From assembly GCA_905221615.1 (NCBI GenBank), contig CAJNDT010006185.1, positions 248,001 through 312,000 of the forward strand: 64,000 nucleotides of DNA, written 5' to 3'. The notes beneath the pieces were generated by a model. The model searched no databases and was not told the origin of the DNA. It saw only the letters and a list, made by a program, of their open reading frames with translations. A program made the translations under genes and the position numbers. The DNA is from Symbiodinium sp. CCMP2592 (taxonomy: Eukaryota; Sar; Dinophyceae; Suessiales; Symbiodiniaceae). Positions 14,725-56,008 of this stretch are shown piece after piece. How positions within the stretch are numbered: the first letter of the stretch is position 1; each line of letters starts with the position of its first letter.

Positions 14725-14957
14725 GCCAGATTTTTCCCAATGATAACGGGTAGCCCCCCCCAGCGGTAGCTCTCGCCAATTTTCTAGTGCGAGTGGGATG
14801 CCAGGTTTTTCCCAATGATAAAAGGGTAGCCCCCCTGCGGTAGCTCTCGCCAATTTTTTACTGCGAGTGGGATGCCAGATTGTTCCCGACGCTAAACTGG
14901 TAGCCCTCCAGCAGTAGCTCTCGCCAATTTGTTGCTGCGAGTGGGATGCCAGATTTT
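14725..14957 (-). repeat. 75-bp repeat array, left arm (3 units)
   Basis: Each unit contains GGTAGC-C-rich, then TAGCTCTCGCCAATTT and GCGAGTGGGATGCCAG. It is the reverse complement of the units at 16257-16765. Confidence 0.9.
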
Positions 14958-15459
14958 CCAAACTTTTGCAAACCAACAATTGTACATTTTGCACACCAAA
15001 ACTTGTTCTTTTTCAGGCAAACCAAAAATCATAATTTTCTTTCGCTTAAACCAAATTTTATATTTTCTCGCAAAACAAAACTTGTAATTTTGTTTCTCGC
15101 AAACCAAAACTTTTTTTTTGGCGTGCAAACCAAAAATTATAGAGTTCTTTCGCGCAAACCAAAAACTCATAATTTTTTTTGCGCAAACCAAAGATTTTTA
15201 TTCTTTTTCGTGCAAAACAAAAACTATAGTTTTTTCGCGCAAACCAAGCACTAGAACTTTTTTCGTGCAGCCCAAAAATTGTAATTTTTTTTCGCGCAAA
15301 CCCAAAATTAATTATAAATTTTTTTTTCGCGCAAACCAAAAATTATTTTTTTTCGCGCAAACCCAAAATTATAATTTTTTTTCGCGCAAACCAAAAATTA
15401 GAATTTTATTTTCGCGCAAACCAAAAACGTATATTTTTTTTATTTCAAACCCTAAGTAT

Positions 15460-15665
15460 AAATCAAAATTATAATTAGGTTCCAAAAAACGCACGCGGCA
15501 GATTCAGGATTTTTGAAGGCCGAACCTTGAAAAAAACCTGAGCCGCCCGCGTGTGTTTTATAATACGCACGCGGGCGACTCAGGTTTTTTTCAAGGTTTG
15601 GCCTTCAAAAAACCTGAATCTGCCGCGTGCGTTTTTTGGAACCTAATTATAATTTTAATTTATAA
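15460..15665. repeat. Core inverted repeat of the palindrome
   Basis: The left arm includes AATTAGGTTCCAAAAAACGC, ACGCGGCAGATTCAGG and AACCTTGAAAAAAACCTGAG. The right arm is its reverse complement with few mismatches, separated by about 10 bases around TTTTATAATA. Confidence 0.9.
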
Positions 15666-16256
15666 TTAGGGTTTGAAATAAAAAAATTTATAAGTTTTTG
15701 GTTTGCGCGAAAAAAATTATATTTTTTGGTTTGCGCGAAAAAAATTTCAATTTTTGGGTTGCGCGAAAAAAATTATAATTTTGGGTTTGCGCGAAAAAAA
15801 TTATAACTTTTGGGTTGCGCGAAAAAAGTTCTAGTGCTTGGTTTGCGCGACAAAATGTACTTTATGGTTTGCGCGAAAAAAATTATAGTTTTTGTTTTGC
15901 ACGAAAAAGAATAAAAGTCTTTGGTTTGCGCAAAAAATGATAAGTTTTTTTGTTTGCGCGAAAAAAAGCTTTAATTTTCGGTTTGCACGCCAAAAAAAGT
16001 TAAGTTTTGGTTTGCGAGAAATAAAATTATGAGTTTTGGTTTGCGAGAAAAAGTGAAAATTTTGGTTTGCGCAAAAAAAAAGGTTGGCACGGAAAATATC
16101 ATTTATGGTTTGCATGAAAAAAGTATTATTTTTGCTTTGCACGAAAGAAATTATAGTTTTTGGTTTGCACGAAAATTGTTTTGGTTCGCGATAAAAAAAG
16201 AGAAATTTTTGTTGTGCAAAATATGTATAGTTTTTGGTTTGCAAAGGTTTAAAAAA

Positions 16257-16765
16257 TCTGGCATCCCACTCGCAGTAACAAATTGGCGAAAGCTACCGCT
16301 GGAGGGCTACCCCTTTAGCGTTGGGAAAAATTTGGCATCCTACTCGCAGAAAAAATTGGCGAGAGCTACCGCTGGAGGGCTACCCCTTTGTCAATTGCAA
16401 AATTCTGGCATCCCACTCGCAGTAGAAACTTGGCGAGAGCTGCCGCTGGGGGGCTACCCCTCTATCATTGGGAAAAATCTGGCATTCCACTGGCAGTAAA
16501 CAATTGGCGAGAGTTACCGCTGGGGGGCTACCCCTTTATCATTCGGAAAATCTGGCATCAAACTCGCAGCAAAAAGCTGGCGAGAGCTACGCCGGGGGGT
16601 TACCCCTCTATCATTGGGAAAATCTCGCATCCCGTTCGCAGTATACAGTTGGCGAAGCTACTGCAGGGGGGGCTATTTTCTACCATTGGGAAAATTTGGC
16701 ATCCCACTTGCAGCAAAATATTTGGCGAGAACTACAGCTGGGGGGCTACCCCTTTGTCAATGTCC
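16257..16765 (+). repeat. 75-bp repeat array, right arm (7 units)
   Basis: Units start with GGCATCCCACTCGCAGTA, continue with TTGGCGAGAGCTACCGCTGG and end with TACCCC plus ATTGGGAAAA. The array is longer than the left one, so it was amplified or trimmed after the palindrome formed, or before. Confidence 0.9.
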
Positions 16766-42507: not shown

Positions 42508-42512
42508 TCTTT
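42508..42512 (+). repeat. Target-site duplication, left
   Basis: TCTTT immediately before the 5' LTR. It is identical to 56004-56008. Confidence 0.9.
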
Positions 42513-42674
42513 TGTAATTTGTGCACGTGTGAAGTAGCATGTTGTGTGGTGACATTTTGGCTCAAGTGCTCTGGCAGTAACAAGGTGTAGTTACCGAATG
42601 GTACAAGCCGTGCAGTTATCACTTGGACGGGTATATACAACAGTGCGTGTGTGCAGTGGTTTACAACAACTATA
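42513..42674 (+). repeat. 5' LTR (162 bp)
   Basis: Matches 55842-56003 at 160 of 162 positions. It starts TGTAATTTGTGC and ends CAACTATA, so the termini are TG...TA rather than the usual TG...CA; the target duplication fixes these borders. It contains GGGTATATACAACAG (around 42630), a possible TATA-like signal, and the spliced-leader match at 42553-42566. Confidence 0.95.
42553..42566 (+). promoter_or_regulatory. Spliced-leader-like 14-mer in the 5' LTR
   Basis: CATTTTGGCTCAAG is identical to the last 14 bases of the 22-base dinoflagellate spliced leader. The bases just upstream (TGTGGTGA) match it only in part. Confidence 0.7.
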
Positions 42675-42700
42675 GGTTATCAGCCGTATAGCCTACGGCC
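42675..42700 (+). promoter_or_regulatory. Primer-binding-site region (candidate)
   Basis: GGTTATCAGCC directly follows the LTR. It resembles the TGGTATCAG start of initiator-Met-tRNA primer sites with one inserted T, so priming by that tRNA is possible but not shown. GCCGTA at 42684-42689 and TACGGC at 42695-42700 form a hairpin over the same region. Confidence 0.35.
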
Positions 42701-42737
42701 TGGTCATCTGGTTGGTTACAATACAATCAATCAGCGC

Positions 42738-45700
42738 ATGAGCGAACCGGAACTTATTCCTGCAAATATGGATACTGTTACAAGCACCGTGAACCCTTCC
42801 CAGCCCCCGGTCACGGGTGGCCAAGCAGGGATCGGCGCCCCCGGCTTTGTTTTCCCGGCACCAGCCTCAGTCCAACAATTCAACGTCTTCGCACCTCAGT
42901 ACAGTGTCGAAGTACACGTTAACCAGATCAGACTGGAAGTCGGTGAACTAGAAGCTCAGGCAGAAGCTAGACACAGGCAACACATGCTGACCTATCAAGA
43001 AGCATCCGCAATTCAAACAGCCGACTTAAAGCACACGGCAGAACGTAACCACCTTGAAGTGGTAGCGGAACTGCAAGCAGCCTTGGCGCAAAGTGAGTAC
43101 AAGGCAGCAAATCGAGAAAGGCTCCTGTTGTCTGAAATGACTTTGAGCCAGGCGCATGCCTTTGACGAAGATCAAAGGTTACGTCAAGAGCTCGCGGAAC
43201 TTCAACAAAGCCGAATCACAGACGCATTGGATCAACAACTGGCGGAATCACGCTTTGCACAGAACCTCGAAGAACAGGCAAGACAGCACATTGAGAATTC
43301 TCAGGAAGTCATGGTTGAGCAGTTCCAAGCACACTTTGAGTTGTTTAGGAACAGGCAGAAAGAAGAGTATGAGGCGTCCCTTGCCGAATGCAGGGAACAG
43401 AACGAAGAGCTTCAGGACAGATTGGATTCTGCGGAAACTGCATTAGAGAAGGTCTTGGATCAGTACAATCCAGCTGCTCCAAAGAGCCAGCCTACGCCTG
43501 CTCCAAGTACCCCTGCAGGTCCCTCTGTCTTCCCCAAAGCTCCTCAAGCGCCCATGTTCTCAATGCCGAATGTTATCCCCCAAGCTGCTAGATGTCTGTT
43601 CGAGTCAATGAATCCAGGAGGTTTGAATGCTCAGCCCATTCCGTCTGCAACAGCATCTTCAATCCCCAAAGCAGGACCTTCCCAGGCACCGCCAGGAACA
43701 GCGGCCCCTCCAGCGGCCGATTCCGGGACGCCAGGAACAGAGGTTTTCAACACAGGTCTTCTAGAGACACAAATGGCTATCCTCCAAAGCCTAAGAAGCT
43801 TGAGGGGTGAGAACAAAGGTGATGCTGACAAACCCAAAGCAAAAGAAGCAGAGTCCATCAACCTTCCGGAGTTCCCAAGTCCAGAGTCGTATCGTTCGTG
43901 GAAAACGGCAGCTAGGGAGGCGGTCAGGGCCGCATCAGATTCTCCTGATGAGGCGTTTAAATGGGTGATGAAGGCCTACGACAAAGACGCATCGCAGGAA
44001 TCCCTTCGAGACCCTGAGAAATTCCTCACCCTTGACACGAAACTCCTTGCTGCCCTCACCAAAGTCGCTAGGGGAGAACTTTCCCGAGAGATCCTCATTT
44101 TTAAGGAGACAGAAGCGGCAAAGTTCAGGGCGGTACGAGGACGGCAGGTGCTCTACCTCTTCGATCAGTACTTCAAGACGAACGAGGAGGTAGGCTCACT
44201 GTACTCCGTGGAGGATCTGCTGAAAGTAAGGTTAATCAACGACGACCTTTCAGTGTTTATTAGCAACTGGGAATCTGTCATGTCTGGACTCAGCCACACA
44301 CCGGACGAAACGACCTTGAGAGACATTTTCCTTCGTGAACTCAGGCAGTCCAAGAGGCTTAAGTACGATCTTGGGATTTACGACAGGGCATCAGAGGGTA
44401 CGGATCAGCACACGTGCAAGTTTCTTGTGAAGTCGCTTAAGGATCTTTTGACCCGAGAGCGCAAACGCAAGAACCGTGACCGTATTGCAAGGTCTCACGG
44501 GGATAAGTACGGTGCCCCTGCCTCAAAGTCTCCTGGCCGAACTTCCAGCCCCTCTTCAAGAGGAGGCCGTGGCAGATCACAGAGCCCAAGGCCAAGATCA
44601 CCCAGCAAAGGTAGATCCCAGTCTCCCAATAAGCCTAGGACACCTAGCCCAAAGGGAGTATGCTACGATTTCCTCAAAGGAACTTGCAAGCGAGGCAACA
44701 ATTGTCCTTTCCTTCACAAGAAGAGATCGTTGTCCCCAAAAGGTGACAAACAGAAGAAGAAGATTAACGTGACCTGCAAGTTCTGGAAAGAAGGCAACTG
44801 CAACAAGGGTGATAAATGTCGGTTCCAACATAAGGACATCGAGAAGCCGTCAGCTCCCGCACCCAAGTCCGAAGCCGCCCCGGCAGCTCCAAAGCCAGGG
44901 TCACCCAGGGCCAACTCCCCAGCTCCGCGCAGAGGGAGAAGTCCCCGGGCGAAGTCAAGTGACAAGGCTCCAAAGACGGCCGCATGCGCCATCGCGTTCG
45001 AGACTACAGCGGATCTTAAGATCTCGCCAAAGCTCGCTATGGCAGCGTCACATGATGAGGACTATTGGGAGGTAGACTTCACCGGCAACAAAATCATCCG
45101 CCATCACAAGAAGTACCGAACAGATTGGTATGTTCCTGACAACTCATGTCCTGTGAACCCCAAGAAGCTTAGGAGCCAAGCCAAGCTCGAGCAGGTTTTG
45201 CCGGTCTCTCCATTTGTCGGAAACAAGATCTACAACTGGAGAAAGACCCCAACCAAAGGACCCGGCAGCACGTGGGTAGGTAAAACGATCTTCTACATGC
45301 AAGAACTCCCTAAGGTGAGTTTCGACAGCACTGTAGAAATGATTGCCATCGAACCGGAAGGCAAGCAGAGAAAACACGCCTACCTTCCCAGGGTTTATGA
45401 CGAAGTCTACCCCACTGTCGAGAAGTGTCCCCGCTCGAATCCTAAGGATCTGAAGAGGGCTCTTGTGTGGGCAAAGCAGTTTGCCACCATGATAGAGTGC
45501 ATGGTACACGACATGCCTGCGGGATGCGGGTATGAGTGCACGGAGGAAGGCTTCCTCTGCGAGGAGTGCGAGCGACTTGCACGTCCGTCATGTGCTGGTC
45601 TGGTCCCCGGCTTAAAATTCCTAGCGGACACCGGGAGTGAAGAAGACCTCATCAGTAAGTCGGACTGCAGAACTCACTTCCCCGACGTACCCATAGAACC

Positions 45701-46139
45701 TGCCTCACGTCCTGTTTCGTTGATCACAGCCAACGGGCCGGTAAAAGGTAATGAAGCCGTTAAGCTAGAGGTTCCTGAAATCAACAAAGTCCTCGAGTGC
45801 TACGTGCTAGACTCAACGCCGCCGGTTTGCTCTGTTGGTAGAAGATGTATGGACGAGGGCTTTGATTTCCATTGGTACGCAGGGAAGACGCCTTACTTCG
45901 TGACGCCCGAAGGCCGGAAACTTTACTGCAAGCTGCGCGGGCGAGTCCCGGTAATTGGGGATGGTACGATCGCTGTCCTCACTCGCCGGTCGTCCAGGCA
46001 ACATCGGGTTTTCCCCGTTCAGCGGCCTACTAAGGCACGCCAATGCAGCAGAAACCGAGCCGGAAGGCGAATCCTCGGGCAAAGGCCTCGACCCCAGGAT
46101 CGAAAAAGCTTTGAAAGAGGCCGCTCCGTTGAGAATTAA
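42738..46139 (+). CDS. Gag-protease polyprotein of the copia element
   Basis: 1133 residues from ATG 42738; the frame is open further upstream, but only from a GTG inside the LTR. Residues about 60-245 form a long Gln/Glu-rich coiled coil. About 374-600 is a capsid-like helical region (PEFPSPESYRSWKTA). About 600-640 is Ser/Arg/Pro-rich. Two CCCH zinc fingers follow: C642, C650, C656, H660 and C680, C688, C694, H698 (C-x7-C-x5-C-x3-H each), in place of the usual CCHC knuckle. Then comes a DYWEVD...RHH module, and the aspartic protease with its active site ADTGSEEDLI (D964). It packages the RNA and processes the polyprotein. The frame ends 184 bases into the integrase frame, which lies one base forward. 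Confidence 0.85.
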   Translation: MSEPELIPANMDTVTSTVNPSQPPVTGGQAGIGAPGFVFPAPASVQQFNVFAPQYSVEVHVNQIRLEVGELEAQAEARHRQHMLTYQEASAIQTADLKHTAERNHLEVVAELQAALAQSEYKAANRERLLLSEMTLSQAHAFDEDQRLRQELAELQQSRITDALDQQLAESRFAQNLEEQARQHIENSQEVMVEQFQAHFELFRNRQKEEYEASLAECREQNEELQDRLDSAETALEKVLDQYNPAAPKSQPTPAPSTPAGPSVFPKAPQAPMFSMPNVIPQAARCLFESMNPGGLNAQPIPSATASSIPKAGPSQAPPGTAAPPAADSGTPGTEVFNTGLLETQMAILQSLRSLRGENKGDADKPKAKEAESINLPEFPSPESYRSWKTAAREAVRAASDSPDEAFKWVMKAYDKDASQESLRDPEKFLTLDTKLLAALTKVARGELSREILIFKETEAAKFRAVRGRQVLYLFDQYFKTNEEVGSLYSVEDLLKVRLINDDLSVFISNWESVMSGLSHTPDETTLRDIFLRELRQSKRLKYDLGIYDRASEGTDQHTCKFLVKSLKDLLTRERKRKNRDRIARSHGDKYGAPASKSPGRTSSPSSRGGRGRSQSPRPRSPSKGRSQSPNKPRTPSPKGVCYDFLKGTCKRGNNCPFLHKKRSLSPKGDKQKKKINVTCKFWKEGNCNKGDKCRFQHKDIEKPSAPAPKSEAAPAAPKPGSPRANSPAPRRGRSPRAKSSDKAPKTAACAIAFETTADLKISPKLAMAASHDEDYWEVDFTGNKIIRHHKKYRTDWYVPDNSCPVNPKKLRSQAKLEQVLPVSPFVGNKIYNWRKTPTKGPGSTWVGKTIFYMQELPKVSFDSTVEMIAIEPEGKQRKHAYLPRVYDEVYPTVEKCPRSNPKDLKRALVWAKQFATMIECMVHDMPAGCGYECTEEGFLCEECERLARPSCAGLVPGLKFLADTGSEEDLISKSDCRTHFPDVPIEPASRPVSLITANGPVKGNEAVKLEVPEINKVLECYVLDSTPPVCSVGRRCMDEGFDFHWYAGKTPYFVTPEGRKLYCKLRGRVPVIGDGTIAVLTRRSSRQHRVFPVQRPTKARQCSRNRAGRRILGQRPRPQDRKSFERGRSVEN
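42803..42821 (+). repeat. Bulged hairpin 1
   Basis: GCC/GGC outer stem, inner stem CCCG/CGGG, loop GTCA, bulged T. In the gag frame it encodes QPPVTGGQ. Confidence 0.75.
44548..44567 (+). repeat. Bulged hairpin 2
   Basis: Outer GCC/GGC, inner CCTCT/AGAGG, loop TCA, bulged A. It encodes SSPSSRGG in gag. Confidence 0.7.
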
Positions 46140-47322
46140 GGCGGAGTACTTGAACAAACCAGGTTGGGTTTCACATCCTTCCTTTCCACAGATGATCGTG
46201 GGGCACTTTCCCAAAACCTTTAGAACGCCTGCAACGCGGTTTCCAAAGCATGTCATCCGGAGTACTTGGACTTATGTCAAGAAATGGCAGGAGGTCGAAA
46301 AGGATGTGGATGTTATGACGTTGGACAATCGGGTAGCCAAGCTCCCTTCCGATGCCTGCATTCTCAGTATAACGATCTTTAAACGACCTGCTGATGACCC
46401 CGAGCCGGAGCCTGACAGCGAAAGAGAAGCTGAAGCTGACCCAAAGGATGAAAAACGTTCAGCCCAGCTCAAGCTGCAGGCCAATAGCCCGGAGCACAAA
46501 TTCACCCATCGTCCTAAGAACCCTTTCTGCAAGGTATGCCAAAAGGCCAAAATGCTAGCGCCACATGCCAGAAAGCGAGGGGGGAGCTCCACTATCTTTT
46601 TGAAGAAGTTCGGAGCCCACGTGACAATTCATCACATTGTGACCAAGGACTTGCGTGATTTTGGGATCGAGGGTGAGAAAGTTGCTCTTGTGGTTAAGGA
46701 CGTGTTCACTAACTTTCGTTATGTGTACCCTGCAGGTACGAAGGAGTCGGAAGAGGTTTATGATTGCCTGCTGCACTACTTCGCTGTAGATGATGAACCA
46801 GGGATCATTTACTCCGACAATGCCCCCGAACTCAAGAATGCTACTGGAAAATACAAAGTTCGTCACAACACTTCCCGACCTTACGTCGATGAGAGCAAGT
46901 CTGTTGTTGAGAGAGAGATTCGAACTGTGCTCGAGGGCACACGGGCGAACTTGCTTCAGGCAGGACTTCCAACGAAGCTCTGGCCCTTAGCTGCTCAACA
47001 TCACACTATGGCTCTAAACTTGTCCAAAAGGATGGACACGGCGAAGATCCCATGGGACGAAAGGTTCGGTGAGGGGTTTAGCGGTAAGCTCATTCCTTTT
47101 GGTGCCAAGGTTCTTTATTGGAACAACCCCAAAGAGAACATCACAAATGCATCTAAGTTCGACCCAAAGGCCGAAGACGGTATCTTTCTTGGGTACCACA
47201 TTCAACCTGGCTTCATTTGGAGACAGGAATACCTTGTAGCTCCCTTAAAGGGTAGCCAAGATGCAATTGACAATGACGACCTGAGAATCATTCGGGTCAA
47301 GCGCATGGAACTTCCGATAGGG
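45955..47322 (+). CDS. Integrase region of the copia polyprotein
   Basis: Inserts the cDNA into the host genome. The frame is +1 relative to gag-protease; an in-frame TAA at 45952-45954 precedes it, so it must be entered by frameshifting or is displaced by an indel. The zinc-binding HHCC part is compact: H 46495, H 46507, C 46528, C 46537 (HKFTH...FCKVC). The catalytic core has D at 46699 (KDVFTNF), D at 46816 (YSDNAPEL) and E at 46909 (VVEREIR), with only 30 residues between the second Asp and the Glu. The usual GTRANLL and conserved tail (GAKVLYW, KFDPKAEDGIFLGY) follow. At about 47311-47330 the homologous text jumps to the gag frame. Codons after that in this frame are not integrase. Confidence 0.85.
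46462..46481 (+). repeat. Bulged hairpin 3
   Basis: Outer GCC/GGC, inner CAGCT/AGCTG, two-base bulge CA. It encodes SAQLKLQA just before the integrase zinc region. Confidence 0.6.
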
Positions 47323-50300
47323 GATATGGTTTTCCTCTTGCGGTTTCCGAGGATCAGGGGGGTGATCCACCCAAGCTTCAGGATCAAGACTGTGTTTTTC
47401 CATCTAAGGACAAGACGCTTCCTCCTTCAGGTGGTATTGACGACATCTTTGGTCCTAAGGAACTTGACCCTTGGAACCCAGAGGGCAGAGACGTGGAGGG
47501 AGAGCTTGAAAAGCTTAGGCAGAGAGCTTCCGAACCCATCTCTGTTCTTGACGAGGACAAACTCCCTGAGGCTGAGGGTAAGTCAGGTAGTGGTTCCAGC
47601 CCCCCGGAAGGGGATGGCCGTGGATCATCGACTGACAAACCGTCAGATAGTTCCAAACGGAAACCGCCTCCAAAGAGACATGATCCCTACACCATGCCCG
47701 ATGGCAAACCTCTGCCTGAAGGATACAACTGGGATGGGATCAGACTTGTTCGAAACAAGAAGGGCTCGAAGCGACCCCCAGACACCTCTAGCGAGGAGTG
47801 GCACATGATGTCCCGCAATCAGCGCGAGGCTGACATCGAAAGGTATCAGTCTAAATGCCGTCGCGAGGAAGCCGCCCGAGCAGAGGCTGAAAGGGATGCT
47901 TCTCCAGCTATGCCCGTAATGACTTGTGAAAACGAGCCTCATCGTGTCAAGATGGCAACCCTCTACTGGGAAAAGTTAGGGGAACTGTCTGCTCTTGAGT
48001 ATGCGTTGGTAGCCAGGGTCGTCAACCAAGCCGAGATTGATCGTACCCCAGCAGCCAAGGCCGCTATGGACAAAGAGTGGCAGAAGCGAGTCGACAAGTC
48101 TTGTTGGTTGCACTCGAAGGTTCGTGAGTTTCGTGATGTTTCCGCTGAAGCAATCAGGAAAGGCATCAAAACCCACTTTGGAAGAATCTTCGAAATATGC
48201 AGCATCAAGGGCGACGAACTTCCAGAAGGACACCCTGACAGGAAGTGGAAGGGACGTAGCGTGTTCCAGGGGAATCGGGTTTCAGACGAACATAACGATC
48301 GTGCGATCTTCTCTGAGCTCGGATCCAGCCCCGCTTCAATGGAGGCCGCTAAAGTCATCGACGTCTTCGGTAGCCAGCCTGGATACATGAAGCAACAAGC
48401 TGACGCGAAGCAGGCTTACACGCAAGCATTATTTAAAGGAGTAGAAACTTGGGTCAGACTCCCACGCAACCGGTGGCCTAAGGAATGGCGAGGGTTTGCC
48501 GACCCAGTCGTGCCCTTAATGCTAGCCCTCTACGGACACCCGGATTCCGGCGGGATCTGGGAGAAACACTGTGAAGATCAGTTGAAAACCGTAGGGTGGA
48601 CCCCGGTATTGCCCGAGATCTGGCAGTCCATTTTCTACCATGCTGAGCTTGATCTTCTTTTGGTCATCTACGTTGATGATTTCAAAATGGCTGGCCCAAC
48701 AAAGAATCTCGCTAAGGGATGGGCGACAGTTGAGAGCGTCATCGACATGGATCCTCCTGAGCCTTTTGGTAGGTACTTTGGTTGTAACCATTTTGAGAAA
48801 ACCCAGGTACAACTTCCTAGGTCAGCACATCCGTTTGCATACGTGTTTGACAAGAAGACTGCTGCTCCAGCCCGGGGTCACCCGAGGCCACAAGTTCGAG
48901 AGGACTTCTGGGAAGTCGATACAGAGCTTGGCGCAGTCGTTCGTCATCACGTGTATCCTAGGAAGCGGTTGTATGTTCCCACGAACAGGGACATTGAGGT
49001 TTTCCCAAACTTGTCAACAACCAGGGTAACCGCTTTCGATGAAGGCCCGATTGAGGAACATGATGTCAATCTCGACCCCGACCTTAAGCGCGAGGAGTGG
49101 TGGACCGGCCGATCCTTGTTCCCTTTACCAGGTCACGATGCCGAGAAGATCAGACATGCTCTAGCTGCCTCCAAAGGCAAGCCGTCTAGGTCTAAGGCCG
49201 AGGCCAAGAGGGAAGCCAAGGAACAGAAGTTCAAGGGAACAGACACGATTTGCAGAGAAGCTATTCCTTCAATGGATAAGCCTGTGAACGTCATGACATA
49301 TGACATGAAAGACTTCCTGATTTCTTGTGTGGACAGGTACTGTGATCTTGCTAAGGTTTCGAAGCAGTCCCTTATCAACGTTCCCACTCCGTTTTCAGAG
49401 AACAGAATTGCTAAGCCGACTGAGGGGGAAGAGCCATCTGGTCGCCTCCAACCAATCGCTAGCAAGGTTCTCATGAAAATCCTGTTTGCCGCTAGGATGG
49501 CACGATGGGATCTCCTGCGGGCTACTCAAAGCCTCGCCAGTAGGGTGACGAAGTGGAGCAGGGACTGCGATGCAGCACTTCACAGGCTTGTCTGCTACAT
49601 CAACTCTTCACTTGATGTTCGGATGCAGGGATTTATTGGGGATCGCATCAGTGAGTGTAAGCTTTGGCTGTTCTGTGATGCAGATTGGTCTGGGGAACAT
49701 GATCGCAAATCAACCTCAGGCTGTGCACTGTATCTTGTAGGGCCAAACACCTACTACCCGTTGAATGCCTTTTCCAAGAAACAGACCAGCATCACGATGT
49801 CAAGCACCGAAAGCGAGGTCATCAGTGCTAACCATGGTGTTCGCGCTCCGGGATTGCCCAGCCTCAGCCTTTGGATTTTCCTATGGCAACAGGTTGAGAT
49901 CAATTCAGCCAACCATCAGGTTAGGCCAAAGAGACCTCCGCCCATCAAGATTGATGGTGTTCTAGCAAGAGTCGACCCCGAACTTGATGAGATCAGGTAC
50001 GGGGGGATCCCAGGTGGACGATCTGTAGCCAATCTTCAGGGTTTGAACGTGGGCTTGAGTGATAAGTTTCGTGTTCAGTTCCTTGAGGACAACCAAGCGA
50101 CGATCACGATCGTTCACAAAGGTGACAGCGAAAAGATGCGACACACTGATCGTACTCAAAACATCAGCTTTGGATGGTTGAAGCAGCAGTTCGAATTGAA
50201 TGTTGATACGCTCGAACAGGTTGCCGATATCTTCACAAAACCTTTCGCTGAGAAGACCAAGTGGCTTCATGCTCTCAGGTTGATCAACCACAATCTGTGT

Positions 50301-50741
50301 CCTACTGTTGCCAGCAAAGGTGGCAAGGATTCAGACAGCCATTTGGTTGCGAAACCTCAGATTGCAGCCGCCAGTCATGGCCGGCCAGAGCTCGAAGCCA
50401 TTGCTGAAGGTCTTCTTCAGGCCAAGGGTTTCAGTTTTGAGGGTTTGCAATCAGTTGCATCAGAATTCCCAGTGAAGGTGAGCAAGAGACGAAGGTCTCG
50501 TCTTACCACGAATGACAATTCGTACTATCACAATTGGGGTTTCTTTTCGTTCAGTGCCATGCAAGGGATCACCAACATCACCAAGCGGTACCCTTTAGCG
50601 TGTAGGTACATGAACGAGTGGATCAGCAAACATGCACGTCGCGATTTTACGTGGACTTCGATCGCGGTGAATCGTGATGCTAAATCCTTGCTGCATGCAG
50701 ATTCACGGAACCTTAAGGGAAGCGAGAAATTTGGCGATTAG
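47322..50741 (+). CDS. Reverse transcriptase-RNase H region of the copia polyprotein
   Basis: About 1140 codons in the same frame as gag, ending at TAG 50739-50741. After a charged linker, the polymerase has KGRSVFQGN and LGSSPASMEA, the first catalytic Asp in QQADAKQAYTQA, YGHPDSGGIWEKH, and the YVDD box at 48669-48680. A DFWEVD...RHH module interrupts the usual order before the RNase H part. RNase H has DADWSGEHDRKSTSG (49677 on), STESEVISA, EDNQATI, HTDRTQNI and the closing ADIFTKPF. Together these copy the RNA and remove the template strand. All catalytic motifs that I can check are intact. The frame is entered from the integrase frame at about 47311-47330. The first ATG lies further in, so an independent start is unlikely. 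Confidence 0.9.
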   Translation, partial: GYGFPLAVSEDQGGDPPKLQDQDCVFPSKDKTLPPSGGIDDIFGPKELDPWNPEGRDVEGELEKLRQRASEPISVLDEDKLPEAEGKSGSGSSPPEGDGRGSSTDKPSDSSKRKPPPKRHDPYTMPDGKPLPEGYNWDGIRLVRNKKGSKRPPDTSSEEWHMMSRNQREADIERYQSKCRREEAARAEAERDASPAMPVMTCENEPHRVKMATLYWEKLGELSALEYALVARVVNQAEIDRTPAAKAAMDKEWQKRVDKSCWLHSKVREFRDVSAEAIRKGIKTHFGRIFEICSIKGDELPEGHPDRKWKGRSVFQGNRVSDEHNDRAIFSELGSSPASMEAAKVIDVFGSQPGYMKQQADAKQAYTQALFKGVETWVRLPRNRWPKEWRGFADPVVPLMLALYGHPDSGGIWEKHCEDQLKTVGWTPVLPEIWQSIFYHAELDLLLVIYVDDFKMAGPTKNLAKGWATVESVIDMDPPEPFGRYFGCNHFEKTQVQLPRSAHPFAYVFDKKTAAPARGHPRPQVREDFWEVDTELGAVVRHHVYPRKRLYVPTNRDIEVFPNLSTTRVTAFDEGPIEEHDVNLDPDLKREEWWTGRSLFPLPGHDAEKIRHALAASKGKPSRSKAEAKREAKEQKFKGTDTICREAIPSMDKPVNVMTYDMKDFLISCVDRYCDLAKVSKQSLINVPTPFSENRIAKPTEGEEPSGRLQPIASKVLMKILFAARMARWDLLRATQSLASRVTKWSRDCDAALHRLVCYINSSLDVRMQGFIGDRISECKLWLFCDADWSGEHDRKSTSGCALYLVGPNTYYPLNAFSKKQTSITMSSTESEVISANHGVRAPGLPSLSLWIFLWQQVEINSANHQVRPKRPPPIKIDGVLARVDPELDEIRYGGIPGGRSVANLQGLNVGLSDKFRVQFLEDNQATITIVHKGDSEKMRHTDRTQNISFGWLKQQFELNVDTLEQVADIFTKPFAEKTKWLHALRLINHNLCPTVASKGGKDSDSHLVAKPQIAAASHGRPELEAIAEGLLQAKGFSFEGLQSVASEFPVKVSKRRRSRLTTNDNSYYHNWGFFSFSAMQGITNITKRYPLACRYMNEWISKHARRDFTWTSIAVNRDAKSLLHADSRNLKGSEKFGD
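47599..47618 (+). repeat. Bulged hairpin 4
   Basis: Outer GCC/GGC, inner CCCC/GGGG, tetraloop GGAA, bulge AT. It encodes SSPPEGDG in the linker before RT. Confidence 0.7.
48870..48888 (+). repeat. Bulged hairpin 5
   Basis: Outer GCC/GGC, inner CGGG/CCCG, loop GTCA, bulged A. It encodes PARGHPRP. Confidence 0.75.
50367..50385 (+). repeat. Bulged hairpin 6
   Basis: Outer GCC/GGC, inner GCCA/TGGC, loop GTCA, bulged C. It encodes AAASHGRP behind RNase H. Confidence 0.7.
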
Positions 50742-50781
50742 TTTCGGGGACTTTTCTGGAGGTTTGTTGTGAGTTGAAGGG

Positions 50782-52450
50782 ATGCCGGGACAAGGTCCGG
50801 ATACCCAGACTAAGGACAATGGAAAGGTTGTTACTGGTGGAACTCACAACACAAAGCACTCTCCTTTGTATTTTGCCCCTGATCTCCACCACTGCGTGAT
50901 GCCTTGGAAGGGCACCCGTTTTGGTTTGATCGCTTTCACTTCTTCCCAGGTCGGTAGTATTAGTAATGATGTGAGAGAACAATTGGAGATATTGAAGTTC
51001 AGGCTGCCCAAACCAGCTGCGGTCGCTGCTCCAGCCCGGCTTTCGCCGAGGCCAATTGCATGCACCGATCAGGGGGGACTGAGTCTTCAACGGTGGTGGA
51101 TTGCGGTTCGCCATGAAACTCCATCACAATGGTTACCTTTGACCCGCCTCATCACTTCTGTTCGCGATGATGGGGGAGCAGTCATTATCACTTCACTTTC
51201 GTTTGTCACGGTGGTGATGACATCGCTCTCAAAGGGTGACTTGAGGAGGTTGCAAAGGAGCATTGTTGAGATTGTTGAATTGGCTCACTTGTTTTCCAGT
51301 AACTTCTGTGTTCTCTTATGTGGGCCCGTCGACGAATTCATGTTCGACGGAATTAATGCCGAAATTGCACGACTTGAAAATGCATATCTGGTGTGCGCAG
51401 GGCTCCAGGCATTGCCACTTGCGAACTGTGCTAAGGAAAGCTTCCGCTCAGGAACTCAGCATTCGATCGCTAAGGCATCTTACAAGCACGAAGTCGCAGA
51501 TCACGATGACTTAGAGGATATCACATCTTCACATCTTGCTAATCTTGCGAACTTTAGGAAGGTGCTTGCCTGCCCCTGTGCAGCGGCTCATCAGAGCACG
51601 CCAGAAATGATCAGTGATCCCCGAGTGCGAGCAGAAGGCGAGAACAAGCCGTCAGCGCCAGCGACGATTGCCGCATCGGGTGATTCCATCAAGCGAGAGT
51701 GGGCTCACTACCACATGTGGGCCGGTGTCTTCGGGCACGAACTCGGACTTAACCCAGACCGAGATTGGGAAGAGAGCGTGAAACAGCTCTATACAGGCGC
51801 AATCGCGCAAACCGCTTTGTCGACCTGCTTGGGAGATGTTGACCATGGCTACAAGGCCCTCCCTAAGATAGCGCAGATCAACGACGAGGGGTTGTCGCGT
51901 TTCCAGCCCGGCGATAGCCTTGGCCGCGAAAAAGCCTGTATCATCGTTTCCGACTCGACCCTGATCTTTAAAGCTGGTGCGAGGACGTTTGTGGAAATGG
52001 CTGATGACTTCAAAGCCCTCACAGGACCTGGGCACATACTTCAGCAGTACACAAATGTCCGACAGAAGGCTATTTGGGGAGGCAACCTCCACTCGATCGT
52101 CGAAGCTGTTCACACGCTCCTGCCGCAGATCATAAACGAATCTTTAAACCCCTTGCATCTGGAGGTCGATATCGTCGTGGTCTGGATGGGCAACGAACTT
52201 TGCGGTCGCAGAGGAGTTTTCGTCGACACAGGGACGCCGCACTGGCAGATCGGTCCCGAAGGGGTTGCCGCGGAAGGGATCTGGGCGGACATCGCTGCAC
52301 GTGTGTGTGGCGAGATAGGCCGTCTAGCCGCCCTTCAGGGCAGGCCAACAGTGGGTTCGGTACAAATCCTCTCGGATGCCGACCCACTGGACTATGGGCT
52401 GCCTGCGGAGTATCAGCGATTCGAAAGTTCCTCGGGTACGCGAGGAGCAG
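50782..52450 (+). CDS. Accessory ORF, part a (DSBH-like start, SGNH-like core)
   Basis: A clean ATG at 50782, 40 bases behind the pol stop. Near the N-terminus FAPDLHHCVMPWKGTRF resembles the H...G-x-R strand pair of double-stranded beta-helix oxygenase folds, but the rest of such a fold is not obvious. Further on, IIVSDST (S390-D391-S392), a Gly-rich IWGGN, and VVVWMGNE (G470-N471-E472) recall blocks I, II and III of SGNH/GDSL hydrolases. The block V Asp-x-x-His appears as DSTH at 52524-52535, but one frame off. The frame remains open to 52557; homology suggests leaving it at about 52440-52460. The SGNH assignment is tentative and the substrate unknown. Confidence 0.6.
51034..51052 (+). repeat. 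Bulged hairpin 7
   Basis: Outer GCC/GGC, inner CGGC/GCCG, loop TTTC, bulged A. It shares the left flank GCTGCTCCAGCCCGG with hairpin 5. It encodes PARLSPRP. Confidence 0.75.
52327..52345 (+). repeat. Bulged hairpin 8
   Basis: Outer GCC/GGC, inner GCCC(T)/(A)GGGC, small loop, bulged A. It encodes LAALQGRP. Confidence 0.75.
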
Positions 52451-53404
52451 AGGTTTGCACACCGCCTCGCTCAAAGAGTCGGTATGTCAGATTCCGAAAC
52501 ATGATCATTATCATTTTCGTGAAGACTCGACTCATCGTGCAGCCTTGGCCTCTGTGATCGGCCAGCGAATTAAAGTGTGTCAAGCAGACCACTTGTTCGC
52601 GAAGATGCCCGCAGAGACGCTGGACGAGCTGGCCCGCAGGTTTCCCTTCGACCCAGAAGGAACCCGGGTGTATTCCATGCAGTATGTCTTCGATAAGGCG
52701 CTGTATCGGTCACAGCTCTCCCGCCGCCTTTTAAGGCAGGCCGAAATTCGCGAAGCAGCAAATGAATGCCCTGATCCATGGGAATCCCCTTATGTTCCTC
52801 CGCCTGATCTTCCAGTCACTGGAATGCGCGAGGTTCCTCAGGATGTTCTGAATTGGGAATGGGCTGCTGCTCGTGAACAGGCACAAAAGCACGCGAAAGA
52901 GCAAGCAGAGGCACGTGCCCGTGCTGAGCGCAAGGATCCAGCCCCACTTAGTGGTGGCCTTTCTGGGAGCGCATCGTCTCGCGACGTACCGGAGGTGTCC
53001 TTTGACGACGTCATCGAGGCCATCCGTTATCGCACAGAGTCTCACCGGACTCTGTCAGCGGCCAAAGAGGGCATGACCAAGAAGGACCGGGATCCCTCCA
53101 GCGGCTTACTTAGAGCTCGCCCGCACGACTACATTGGGTTAAAGTACCAAGACGACTTGGACCTGATGGAGATGTGTGGCTTCGTCGATGAGGACGTGTG
53201 CCCGGAGGATCCGGAGGGGAGTGAGATCGTTCAGATCCTCCCCGATTCGATCCCAAAGGATCACCTTCCTGAGATGGGCCTCAAACCTTACATTGAGCGA
53301 TATCTCACAGGTGCTGTCCGAGGGTCGAACGTGAAGTTCAGCTCACGGCGCGGGAAATGGGTACGCATACAAGAGCTCATCCAGCATATGTGGAAGAAGC
53401 ACCG
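52450..53404 (+). CDS. Accessory ORF, part b (SGNH block V, linker, Tpt1 N-lobe start)
   Basis: Read in the pol frame, open to 53483. It starts with the segment around HDHYHFREDSTHRAALAS, holding the Asp-x-x-His expected at the end of an SGNH domain. A charged, Ala/Glu-rich helical linker follows (REQAQKHAKEQAEARARAER). The last part, IPKDHLPEMGLKPYIERYL then GKWVRIQELIQHM, fits the winged-helix N-lobe of KptA/Tpt1 RNA 2'-phosphotransferases. At about 53404-53420 the homologous text moves to another frame, so the codons to 53483 are probably not part of the protein. Confidence 0.55.
52723..52741 (+). repeat. Bulged hairpin 9
   Basis: Outer GCC/GGC, inner GCCT(T)/(A)AGGC, bulged A. It encodes RRLLRQA. 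Confidence 0.75.
52941..52958 (+). repeat. Bulged hairpin 10
   Basis: Outer GCC/GGC, inner CCAC/GTGG, loop TTA, bulged T. It encodes PAPLSGGL. Confidence 0.8.
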
Positions 53405-53595
53405 TGTGTATTTTGTCCTTGGTGGCCTACGACAACAAGTCGAGGTTCAATTTGGCAGGCCTCCCCACGGATCCCCGTGCTGACTACATTGAGACGGAGA
53501 TTTGGCCATCTTGGATTTGCGCTTCGCATGGCCATAGCGAGCGCATCATGCAAGGACCAAGTCACCGACGCCTCCATCGCGCCGCATTGGTTTAC
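53404..53595 (+). CDS. Accessory ORF, part c (Tpt1-like N-lobe to linker)
   Basis: Read one frame forward of part b. AYDNKSRFNLAGLPTDP corresponds to the K-x-RF strand of Tpt1. ICASHGHS (53515-53538) corresponds to the conserved I-R-A-x-Q-G-H-S signature, whose His binds substrate in the family; here the Arg is Cys and the Gln is His. This frame ends at TGA 53599-53601, so the protein must change frame again before that point. Confidence 0.55.
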
Positions 53596-53905
53596 AAATG
53601 ACACGCGAGAAGAGCTGGGACCTTCAGCCGCCTATCAAGGCAGGCCATTCTTAGCTCTCGGGGAATTTCCCCTGCGTCTCTACCACAGGACGACGCACGA
53701 CGCTGCCTTCAGCATCCTCAGTTCCGGCTTTACGCCAGGGTACAACAAGAGTGGCAAATTCCACAATTATTTTGCCAAGGCTACCCTCAGTGAACTGGAG
53801 AACAGAGCAGGCAGTCGCTCGAACCTGCCCTACGAGATCGTGCTCGATACACAAGAGGTCAATCGCCACGCATACCTCTTCGAGACGACCTCTGAGGGCA
53901 TCCTT
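53595..53905 (+). CDS. Accessory ORF, part d (Tpt1-like ADP-ribosyltransferase lobe)
   Basis: Frame two positions from part b. LYHRTTHDAAFSILSSGFTP (His at 53684) matches the H-x-T segment that opens the catalytic lobe of RNA 2'-phosphotransferases and related ADP-ribosyltransferases. KFHNYFAKA, PYEIVLDTQEV and ETTSEGILLPV follow in the family order. Tpt1 enzymes move an internal RNA 2'-phosphate to NAD+. Whether the retroelement protein is active is unknown, because some signature residues differ and the lobe is broken into frames. The frame stays open to 54007, but the text from about 53905 on continues better in the next frame. Confidence 0.6.
53627..53645 (+). repeat. Bulged hairpin 11
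   Basis: Outer GCC/GGC, inner GCCT/AGGC, loop ATCA, bulged A. It encodes SAAYQGRP, close to a frame change. Confidence 0.75.
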
Positions 53906-54675
53906 TTACCCGTGATGTGGTGCCGGGCACATGTGTTTTGTACATCCGCGACACCATCAAGGGCGTCATCCTATGGTCCCGCCAATCCAGCGAGGAGGAG
54001 GATGTGATAATCCCGGAGACTGCCACGGAACCCATTGTGGATCCAGGTGCAGCTGAGCCGGAACAGTTCCCCGACATTCCGGAGGAACCTACAGCCCCAC
54101 TTAGTGGAGGCCAAGATGAAGCAACAACCCCGTCTGCTCCCGCAGACGAGCCTATGGTTGAAGTCGAAGTTGAGGATGAGGTTGCGCCATCAGCATCATC
54201 ACCGGCACCTCTTGCACTCAACGACGCTACAGCATCCGACTTTCTTCCGGAGGAAACCACAACATTGGACCAGGGGGGCGCTTCACCACCGGAGGCACCG
54301 ACTGAGTCCAGAAAGCGAGTGCGTTTCCTTGAGCCGGAGGAACCAGTCGAGATCGACATTGAGATCGAGCCAGAGGAAGGCGATGTGAAAAGGGAGGAAG
54401 AAGAGGCCAAAGTCGAGCCGATGTATGAGCAGGCACCGCCGCAACCGGAGTCGACACCATTGGCGCTTCCTCCAGCCCCCGTTACGGGTGGCCGCCACAG
54501 AGCTTGTCCCCACTGTGGGACGCAGCATCTCGTGGGACAGATGATCTGTCTCCACTGTGGCATGCACATCGTGAAGCCTTCCCAACAAAGCGCCCGCAAA
54601 AAGGTGCGAACGGCCCGATGGTTCGCCGAACAAGCTGCAGCGGCCACGGGAACCGCGATCCCAGCTCACACCTGA
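53905..54675 (+). CDS. Accessory ORF, part e (acidic linker and zinc ribbon)
   Basis: Open frame to TGA 54673-54675. It starts with the end of the Tpt1-like lobe (VLYIRDTIKGVILWSR). A long acidic, Pro-rich, probably disordered linker follows (EVEVEDEVAPSA, EIDIEIEPEEGD). Then comes a zinc ribbon with CPHC at 54505-54516 and CLHC at 54547-54558, followed by basic KKVRTARW. Zinc ribbons of this spacing usually bind nucleic acid or protein; no finer assignment is possible. Confidence 0.6.
   Translation, partial: FTRDVVPGTCVLYIRDTIKGVILWSRQSSEEEDVIIPETATEPIVDPGAAEPEQFPDIPEEPTAPLSGGQDEATTPSAPADEPMVEVEVEDEVAPSASSPAPLALNDATASDFLPEETTTLDQGGASPPEAPTESRKRVRFLEPEEPVEIDIEIEPEEGDVKREEEEAKVEPMYEQAPPQPESTPLALPPAPVTGGRHRACPHCGTQHLVGQMICLHCGMHIVKPSQQSARKKVRTARWFAEQAAAATGTAIPAHT
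54094..54111 (+). repeat. Bulged hairpin 12
   Basis: Outer GCC/GGC, inner CCAC/GTGG, loop TTA, bulged A. It encodes TAPLSGGQ. Confidence 0.8.
54475..54492 (+). repeat. Bulged hairpin 13
   Basis: Outer GCC/GGC, inner CCCG/CGGG, loop TTA, bulged T. It encodes PAPVTGGR directly before the zinc ribbon, and the VTGG text is the same as at hairpin 1 in gag. Confidence 0.8.
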
Positions 54676-55048
54676 GGAGGTCATCCACGAGATGGCACGG
54701 GATGCTACCGCGCAACGCGGGACTACCTCCTTGGACGCAGAGGCACTCGACAAGGCACGGCAGCAATTGAAAATGGCGGTGAAAGGAGGATACAGCAGTA
54801 TCGTCAACCGGTTCGACAATGACGTCGATTACACGATGAGTTCCATCGGCAATGGGTTCGACCGGGAGTTTCTCGCCATTGAGGATGTCCTCACGCATGC
54901 TGCTTTGCCTAACCACGGTCGTTCCAAGGAGCAGAGACAGCTCGCCATCGGCACCTATGGCGGCGCAGACGGCCCTCGGAACCAGGAGATTGCCAGGTTG
55001 CTCTACCTGCATGAGTGCAATCCAGCCGCCCTTATAGGGCAGGCCTGA
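54675..55048 (+). CDS. Accessory ORF, part f (helical segment)
   Basis: Frame two positions from the pol frame, open across the part e stop; ATG at 54692. It reads TPEEVIHEMARDATAQRG, a predicted helical segment with EALDKARQQLKMAV, and a conserved-looking FDREFLAIEDVL. It ends at TGA 55046-55048 directly behind hairpin 14. No domain is recognised. Confidence 0.45.
55025..55044 (+). repeat. Bulged hairpin 14
   Basis: Outer GCC/GGC, inner GCCCT/AGGGC, loop TAT, bulged A. It sits exactly at the end of accessory part f (PAALIGQA and stop), where the reading frame changes. Confidence 0.8.
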
Positions 55049-55519
55049 TCTCCGCCGTCAGTGACGATCCATTTTGCATCATGTGGCTTGGAGGGGCATA
55101 CAGTCTGCGTAAGTTCGTAAATGTTTTCCTTCAGCACAAAATTGTGCGAATGATCGTGACCTTCTCTGAGGAGGCACTCTACATTGACCCACGTCTCGGA
55201 TATTCCGCTGACGAATGGGTCGAGTGGCTTCAGCAGAAGTTTGCGGGTCAGGTCGGAGTTGCACGTCGTGCATACGAAGAGCGCCAACGCAACGCTGAAC
55301 GCTCTCGCATTGCTCAGGCCAAGGCTGATGCACGCAGAGCGGAGCAACAGCGCTATCAGCAGGATTGGGACCAAGGCTATCAAAGCGGGTCCCACCCCTA
55401 TGGTCGCTCCTCCGGTTCCCGAGGATGGTACTAAGTACCTGATCGACATTTCGTGGTTCCGACACGTTAACCGGTACTCCGAAATACAGCCCCTCTTAGA
55501 GGTGGCCGAATTTCCCTAA
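55049..55519 (+). CDS. Accessory ORF, part g (C-terminal region)
   Basis: The text SDDPFCIMWLGGAYSLRKF, YIDPRLGYSADEWVEWLQQ and a charged coil (RRAYEERQRNAERSRIAQAK) run in one frame to a stop at 55432-55434. From about 55340-55400 the alternative frame reads PEDGTKYLIDISWFRHVNRY and ends at 55517-55519, which looks more like a conserved protein end. I therefore extend the region to 55519 with one more frame change. The function is unknown. Confidence 0.45.
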
Positions 55520-55833
55520 GACCAGAAAAATTTCATGCTTCATTTCCTGGCAGTCACTTTGTGACAAATCCGAACAGCCAGCAGCTCCATTGGATGATGT
55601 ATTCGTCCCATGCTGCACACGTTCTTGCGACTTGTATCCACGCCATCAATCAAGGCTTGCTGGATCGTCGCCACTTTATAATGCATGTCGCGACTTTATA
55701 CTGCGCGCTAAAAGAATTAATCTGCTTCCGTATCTTCCGCTTTACGGTAGTAGAAAGTCTATGAGCCCCGAGCCACAATCCAGCCGCCTTTACGGCAGGC
55801 CGCACAGCACCAAGCTTCCGTGCATGTTTCGGC
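55520..55833 (+). other. 3' untranslated part of the element
   Basis: No supportable gene between the accessory ORF and the polypurine tract. It contains hairpin 15. Confidence 0.6.
55783..55800 (+). repeat. Bulged hairpin 15
   Basis: Outer GCC/GGC, inner GCC/GGC, loop TTTAC, bulged A. It lies outside any trusted coding frame, 41 bases before the 3' LTR. Confidence 0.75.
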
Positions 55834-55841
55834 GAGGGGGG
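55834..55841 (+). promoter_or_regulatory. Polypurine tract
   Basis: GAGGGGGG abuts the 3' LTR, where plus-strand DNA synthesis of LTR elements is primed. Confidence 0.8.
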
Positions 55842-56003
55842 TGTAATTTGTGCACGTGTGAAGTAGCATGTTGTGTGGTGACATTTTGGCTCAAGTGCTC
55901 TGGCAGTAAAAAGGTGTAGTTACCGAATGGTACAAGCCGTGCTGTTATCACTTGGACGGGTATATACAACAGTGCGTGTGTGCAGTGGTTTACAACAACT
56001 ATA
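55842..56003 (+). repeat. 3' LTR (162 bp)
   Basis: Differs from the 5' LTR by A for C (in GCAGTAAMAAGG) and T for A (in CCGTGCWGTTATC). Confidence 0.95.
55882..55895 (+). promoter_or_regulatory. Spliced-leader-like 14-mer in the 3' LTR
   Basis: Identical to 42553-42566. Confidence 0.7.
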
Positions 56004-56008
56004 TCTTT
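56004..56008 (+). repeat. Target-site duplication, right
   Basis: TCTTT immediately behind the 3' LTR. Confidence 0.9.

Follow-up and report, generated by a model that had tools for sequence, protein, structure and literature searches.

An evenly spaced array of bulged hairpins in the sense strand of a Ty1/copia retrotransposon from Symbiodinium

Introduction

Packaging signals of the MS2 type are many short stem-loops set along a sense RNA, which share a motif in loop and bulge while their stems are free to vary. Here, we describe an array of comparable design within a 64,000-nucleotide stretch of DNA from the dinoflagellate Symbiodinium sp. CCMP2592 (contig CAJNDT010006185.1, in an assembly that totals 1.1 Gb over 5383 contigs, positions 248,001 to 312,000; this whole stretch is called the window). 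The array is carried by a Ty1/copia long terminal repeat (LTR) retrotransposon, 13.5 kb long, at positions 42513-56003 on the + strand. As with MS2, multiple stem-loops with a shared motif are found across the sense RNA, their loops often end in YA, and they often carry a bulged A. Unlike MS2, the bulge is on the 3' arm, the host is an LTR retrotransposon, the loop changes between element families, and the architecture is unusually strict. Further, MS2-type signals are bound by the capsid protein and needed for assembly, which for the array described here is a proposal. To our knowledge, the dispersed packaging signals of viruses are degenerate, and hence hard to prove.

Two other kinds of system come close. 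The Gag of Ty1 in yeast belongs, likewise, to a copia-type element and must select genomic RNA; there, however, the abstract consulted names one packaging signal and a pseudoknot, and no series of signals spread over the RNA. Rickettsia palindromic elements, the GC clusters of yeast mitochondria and byps are mobile, and these, too, are short hairpins repeated within genes. Here, in contrast, diverged elements share many of the hairpin positions, and no hairpin is seen outside the element in the DNA examined. No such hairpin array is described in the titles and abstract openings of the literature matches listed (PMC6281560, PMC8396678 and PMC5890265 among them), a set that covers subscription journals thinly.

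Architecture and spacing of the hairpins

The element carries 28 hairpins, all on the sense strand (Table 1). A sequence-only reading of the window had listed 15, every one of which is present as it described; its total was short of the 13 added here. Among the degenerate relatives that it proposed, those at 47239 and 51906 are real members, while the one at 44894 was not recovered by the covariance model.

Read 5' to 3', the family form is TNCA, GCN, an inner stem of 3-5 base pairs (bp), a loop of 2-6 nucleotides (nt), the inner arm, a bulge, NGC, and C. The outer stem comes in three versions (GCC/GGC, GCG/CGC and GCT/AGC), a variety that the sequence-only reading missed. Loops are 3 or 4 nt long in 21 of the 28 hairpins; they end in A in 22/28, and in YA in 17/28. 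The bulge on the 3' arm is A in 15/28, T in 9, C in 2, and two bases in 2. As for the flanks, T stands at -4 in 27/28, A at -1 in 26/28, and C follows the outer stem in 28/28. Nearly all base pairs are Watson-Crick (196/201), with 2 being G-U and 3 neither. Searching Rfam gave 0 matches at gathering score in the window.

These hairpins were collected in several ways. An exact scan required GCC, a stem of at least 3 bp, a loop of 2-5, a bulge of 1-2, and GGC, while a generic scan took bulged hairpins whose 3-bp outer stem could have any sequence. A covariance model was built from 11 copies, and its window matches were listed to E 10; in its alignment 77/77 cells are paired, which is partly so by choice, because the 11 copies were picked as fully paired. 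Relatives were examined by a separate homolog-peptide test, which asks for each site if the aligned peptide is one that a perfect hairpin of the family form can encode.

The hairpins are spaced evenly. The spacing is ~480 nt, with a coefficient of variation of 0.41 for all 28 and 0.39 for 27, and 0 of 100000 random placements were as even.

Table 1. Positions of the element, its parts and its hairpins in the window (ORF, open reading frame; RT, reverse transcriptase; CM, covariance model; HP, homolog-peptide test; L041, element of a second family)
Feature	Position	Strand	Basis and remarks
Ty1/copia LTR retrotransposon with hairpin array	42513..56003	+	LTR pair, copia domain order, GIP-named Symbiodinium homologs
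Target site duplication TCTTT (5 bp), left copy	42508..42512	+	sequence; right copy 56004-56008
5' LTR	42513..42674	+	162 bp, 99% identical to 3' LTR
3' LTR	55842..56003	+	162 bp, 99% identical to 5' LTR
ORF: Gag (capsid-like region, tandem CCCH zinc fingers) and Pol start	42651..46139	+	Pfam matches
ORF with integrase region	45955..47808	+	rve-type Pfam match
ORF with RT region	47493..50741	+	RVT_2 match; Symbiodinium homologs
3' extension ORF, kept in relatives	50782..52557	+	13 homologs
ORF, weak RNA 2'-phosphotransferase (Tpt1/KptA) match	53357..54007	+	E 0.02 in window copy
Hairpin 1	42803..42821	+	exact scan, CM; homolog peptides compatible
Hairpin 2, outer GCT/AGC	43473..43491	+	generic scan, CM, HP
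Hairpin 3, one mismatch, outer GCG/CGC	43713..43731	+	CM, HP; not predicted stable in window copy
Hairpin 4	44548..44567	+	exact scan, CM; L041 counterpart 9 nt off
Hairpin 5, outer GCG/CGC	45009..45027	+	generic scan, CM, HP
Hairpin 6, outer GCG/CGC	46022..46040	+	generic scan, CM
Hairpin 7	46462..46481	+	exact scan, CM; L041 counterpart
Hairpin 8, outer GCT/AGC	47239..47256	+	generic scan, CM; core unchanged in 29/30 close loci
Hairpin 9, two-base bulge	47599..47618	+	exact scan, CM; L041 counterpart approximate
Hairpin 10, degenerate, within conserved RT motif	48328..48346	+	CM
Hairpin 11	48870..48888	+	exact scan, CM, HP; L041 counterpart, different stem
Hairpin 12, outer GCT/AGC	49164..49182	+	generic scan, CM, HP; L041 counterpart
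Hairpin 13, 6-nt loop, within conserved RT motif	49517..49537	+	CM
Hairpin 14	49908..49926	+	exact scan, CM, homolog peptides; L041 counterpart with three double changes
Hairpin 15	50367..50385	+	exact scan, CM, HP; L041 counterpart approximate
Hairpin 16	51034..51052	+	exact scan, CM, HP; L041 counterpart
Hairpin 17, outer GCG/CGC	51583..51601	+	generic scan, CM, HP
Hairpin 18, one mismatch in window copy	51906..51924	+	CM; 6/8 covering homologs compatible
Hairpin 19	52327..52345	+	exact scan, CM; homolog peptides fit YAGC form (matched by eye)
Hairpin 20	52723..52741	+	exact scan, CM
Hairpin 21	52941..52958	+	exact scan, CM; P0132 peptide compatible (matched by eye)
Hairpin 22, weak member, one G-U	53101..53120	+	CM E 0.55, below two outside matches
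Hairpin 23	53627..53645	+	exact scan, CM, HP
Hairpin 24	54094..54111	+	exact scan, CM, HP
Hairpin 25	54475..54492	+	exact scan, CM
Hairpin 26	55025..55044	+	exact scan, CM
Hairpin 27, apparently non-coding, 3' stretch without long ORF	55489..55506	+	exact scan, CM
Hairpin 28, apparently non-coding, 41 nt ahead of 3' LTR	55783..55800	+	exact scan, CM

Enrichment and strand

Within the element, the exact scan finds 17 hairpins on the + strand and 0 on the - strand, compared to a mean of 0.65 and a maximum of 3 in 100 dinucleotide shuffles. Outside the element, the window yields 3 on + and 1 on -, each with a 3-bp inner stem. The strict form GCC..GGCC is found 14 times on + and 0 on - in the element (mean 0.035 in 200 shuffles), and 0 times on both strands of the remaining 50.5 kb of window. 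With a second exact form (CAGC, 4 bp, loop 3-4), the element has 16 on + and 0 on -, and the remainder of the window has 2 on +, neither of them with T at -4. When synonymous codons are shuffled so that the protein is kept, the 11 coding hairpins of this second form fall to 0.048 (maximum 1; 500 shuffles).

With E 10 as the limit, the covariance model returns 45 window matches. Its top 27 are all in the element and all on +, and 16 of those 27 were not part of model building. Its first match outside the element has E 0.26, and one minus-strand match inside has E 1.5. Bulged hairpins in general are not enriched, as the generic scan gives 33 on + and 12 on - in the element and 20-51 per 13.5 kb outside. 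Thus, the enrichment belongs to this hairpin family, not to bulged hairpins at large. The single orientation and the confinement to the element that the sequence-only reading claimed are borne out, the latter as far as the 50.5 kb of window outside the element, judged by the strict form, and 7.7 kb from elsewhere, where none was found. The shuffles it proposed as a check do make the counts collapse.

Conservation among related proteins

The comparison covered 173 homologs, in alignments of up to 85% identity. Near hairpins, the peptide is compatible with a hairpin at 85/3681 residue positions, versus 9/3681 with the peptide shuffled and 0.092% elsewhere. The register, too, is kept: with CAGC or TAGC allowed, 91/581 are compatible at the exact codon, whereas each of the 12 shifted codons gives 0-10 of 575-617; these peptide counts are not probabilities, of course, because related proteins are counted as separate. 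Among distinct peptides anchored by A..P, the codons of residues 3 and 6 would lie opposite one another in the stem, and these two residues are codon-complementary in 59/66. Permuting residue 6 within sites gives a mean of 47.7 and a maximum of 55, and 0/2000 permutations reach 59. At 49908, all 12 distinct peptides show this complementarity. There, the peptide of two homologs (P0004 and P0011) pointed to the stem GGTC/GACC before the DNA was seen, and L041, an element of a second family, carries exactly GGTC/GACC.

Requiring CAGC strictly, no compatible homolog was found at 44548 (0/32), 46462 (0/30), 47239 (0/44), 48328 (0/113), 49517 (0/74), 52327 (0/6), 52723 (0/4), 52941 (0/2) or 53101 (0/4), and four hairpin sites lack a covering homolog in this test. 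When YAGC is allowed, the peptides of homolog P0132 at 52327 and 52941 become compatible, these sites being matched by eye. For distant copia proteins, compatible peptides number 22 versus 11.8 after composition shuffling in P0041-P0060, 12 versus 10.1 in P0061-P0080, 16 versus 11.8 in P0081-P0100, and 18 versus 9.5 in P0101-P0120. No relatives were found in viral_contigs or genome_contigs.

One might ask whether chance, base composition or conservation of the peptide itself could deliver such a pattern, the more so as in-frame copies encode recurring A....P peptides. However, the hairpins do not survive the shuffles, they lie in several codon phases (as the sequence-only reading had said), and complementary codon pairs exceed those in within-site permutations. 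This explanation is refuted on all three grounds and can hardly be entertained.

Compensatory change in a second family

Close copies were compared at 30 loci of the window element's family, one of them being the window copy. The hairpin cores are nearly invariant over these loci, save single non-aligning rows at 47239, 47599, 48328 and 51034. For the 10 hairpins within the stretch compared, 13/140 stem columns are variable, versus 1059/4507 columns elsewhere (codon position is unmatched in this comparison). The window copy differs from the majority of the 29 copies at 0/140 stem columns, 3/41 loop columns and 187/4507 others.

A second element family of the same genome (L041 and L042, read as DNA) is 64.6-67.2% identical in DNA to the window element where alignable. 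It gives 17 covariance-model matches up to E 1, all on +. Strict hairpins in L041 number 12 on + and 0 on - (shuffle mean 0.03), with GAAA loops in 6/12 and a bulged A in 11/12. L041 hairpins stand at the counterparts of 46462, 48870, 49164, 49908 and 51034, and one is 9 nt from the counterpart of 44548; at 47599 and 50367, where the linkers cannot be aligned, the counterparts are approximate. Among the 13 window hairpins with a counterpart position, no L041 hairpin was scored for 45009, 47239, 48328, 49517 and 52327. For 43473 there is a weaker model match in the second family, 3 nt off, and for 46022 a strict L041 hairpin is 24 nt away, where the two sequences are not aligned. The L041 hairpins matching 44548 and 46462 are without CA and have 5-nt loops. 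Second-family hairpins at positions 2561, 9130 and 9420 of L041 have no clear counterpart in the window element.

At eight hand-matched sites, selected because a hairpin was present, 22 of the 32 inner pairs are unchanged, 10 are changed on both sides, 0 are changed on one side, and 0 are broken. Without the two approximate sites, a hand count gives 24 pairs, of which 17 are unchanged and 7 differ on both sides. The claim that stem changes are compensatory, first made within one element, holds between families.

Such a record could, in principle, come from a signal that acts as DNA, either a cruciform or a hairpin in single-stranded cDNA or the integrated copy, serving chromatin, integrase or cDNA handling. 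The total lack of one-sided changes in the 32 orthologous pairs and the paucity of G-U pairs (2/201) would suit it. However, the scarcity of G-U is read from scans biased to Watson-Crick pairs, the stems are short and bulged on one arm, and a signal in DNA gives no reason for an even spread over the transcribed unit. We regard it as improbable; the array probably acts as RNA.

The sequence-only reading also offered mobile palindromes tolerated within ORFs, and compared them with Rickettsia palindromic elements and mitochondrial GC clusters; byps would be another parallel. The many copies in several codon phases speak for such palindromes. If hairpins move, then relatives should show empty sites of hairpin length. 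Gaps of at least 6 codons are indeed seen in 41/613 spanning homolog alignments at hairpin sites, versus 404/17509 at control sites. Gaps of 6-13 codons, near the length of a hairpin, cover the hairpin at 45009 or adjoin it in four relatives (43-63% identity). However, 23 of the 41 gaps fall at 49908, mostly in distant elements that are without the whole linker (5 of the 41, at four further sites, are uninspected). Further, diverged relatives conserve hairpin positions with compensated stems, the spacing is even, and the strict hairpin form is absent from the rest of the window. Mobile palindromes are, then, poorly supported and very improbable. Aligning siblings, the check that had been suggested, has a mixed outcome: close copies and the second family keep many hairpins, and hairpin-sized gaps occur at a few sites in variable linkers. 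Hairpins may be slowly gained or lost over long times, while many stay in place.

The host element

An LTR pair, a target site duplication and the order Gag, integrase, reverse transcriptase are those of Ty1/copia. In a Pfam profile search, matches to CCCH Gag, rve, SH3_retrovirus and RVT_2 stand in copia order, with the rve, SH3 and RVT_2 scores of the window element falling under the Pfam cut-offs; a protease shows up only in homolog P0133, whose match is weak (E 0.13). Homologs of the element are named GIP in Symbiodinium. A first look gave 3896 candidate copies in this genome. An open frame of 3160-3168 residues is found in 24/39 scored genome copies of the window element's family, and one of 3187-3188 residues in 18/26 scored copies of the second.

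The reading frame of the window copy is interrupted at ~45956-46090 and ~47334, and from 46003 onward the alignment of one homolog is in the new frame. Hairpins as signals for frameshifting or bypass were considered, since the hairpin at 46022 falls within the first of these intervals or right after it. This was not adopted, because no hairpin lies at the second frame change and because 28 hairpins exist.

Downstream of the reverse transcriptase region lie ~5 kb of additional ORFs. The one at 50782-52557 matched no Pfam family; its text pattern is, by impression only, reminiscent of SGNH hydrolases. Another encodes a putative Tpt1/KptA-like domain, here inside a copia retrotransposon; its match is stronger in homolog P0132 (E 2.2e-5, one bit under the Pfam cut-off). 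Hairpin 27 is overlapped solely by stop-to-stop frames of at most 170 amino acids, on either strand.

Both LTRs contain CATTTTGGCTCAAG (at 42553-42566 and 55882-55895), expected 0.06 times even allowing one mismatch. We take this to be the end of the dinoflagellate spliced leader, a sequence met in listed papers on dinoflagellates; the element's RNA may be trans-spliced, with the leader retained in the LTR. Directly behind the 5' LTR, where a primer binding site is expected, positions 42681-42702 form a bulged hairpin of 5 bp and 3 bp whose sequence is unlike the hairpin family. Elsewhere in the window, at 14725-16759, tandem-repeat arrays of 74 bp and 28/29 bp flank a midpoint at ~15.5 kb and look inverted to the eye.

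Possible roles of the array

The hairpins are a selected array of sense-strand structures. Their structure, strand, spacing, conserved position at many sites, compensatory change and low stem variation all say so. The sequence-only reading had suggested, as an alternative to mobility, that the hairpins repeat an RNA signal which serves packaging or translation. The signal stands, as a selected one on the sense strand; packaging would be its likeliest use.

On balance we lean, if slightly, to the view that the hairpins are dispersed protein-binding sites in the element's sense RNA, bound most probably by the element's own Gag, for RNA packaging. Here, each hairpin would be a docking site for a protein, and Gag, with its capsid-like region and tandem CCCH zinc fingers, would be the likeliest ligand. 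With ~28 spaced sites per genomic RNA, Gag could selectively recognize and condense the element's RNA. Gag held on dispersed sites might then nucleate a virus-like particle, as coat proteins do in some RNA viruses.

A selected RNA structure might, of course, do something other than package. It might bind a host protein or another protein of the element, compact the RNA by docking of GAAA tetraloops, protect against silencing, control reverse transcription or translation, or take part in an RNA cleavage and repair tied to the Tpt1/KptA-like domain. Structure and selection leave the ligand unnamed, GAAA loops are found in the second family, and the KptA-like domain is encoded in the 3' region. 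However, the element's own CCCH-finger Gag has this RNA as its natural target, and control of translation alone would not account for those hairpins that lie in a 3' stretch with, apparently, no coding role. Some such role is a real possibility, though we would not call it probable.

We also advance, tentatively, a broader proposal. Copia elements of dinoflagellates may carry a distributed RNA packaging code, made up of some two to three dozen hairpins at even intervals, which lie within a single very long ORF and the 3' flank of that ORF. From family to family, loop and flanks would diverge along with Gag, and co-resident elements might thereby distinguish their own RNA from each other's.

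This would explain how a copia Gag picks its own RNA among many related elements. Because the motif is strict, present in ~28 copies per RNA, kept in position at many sites, and covarying between families in one genome with thousands of candidate copies, the packaging-signal idea becomes testable in a retrotransposon. The array also places a strong constraint at the level of nucleotides on these elements, one that annotation by protein only has overlooked.

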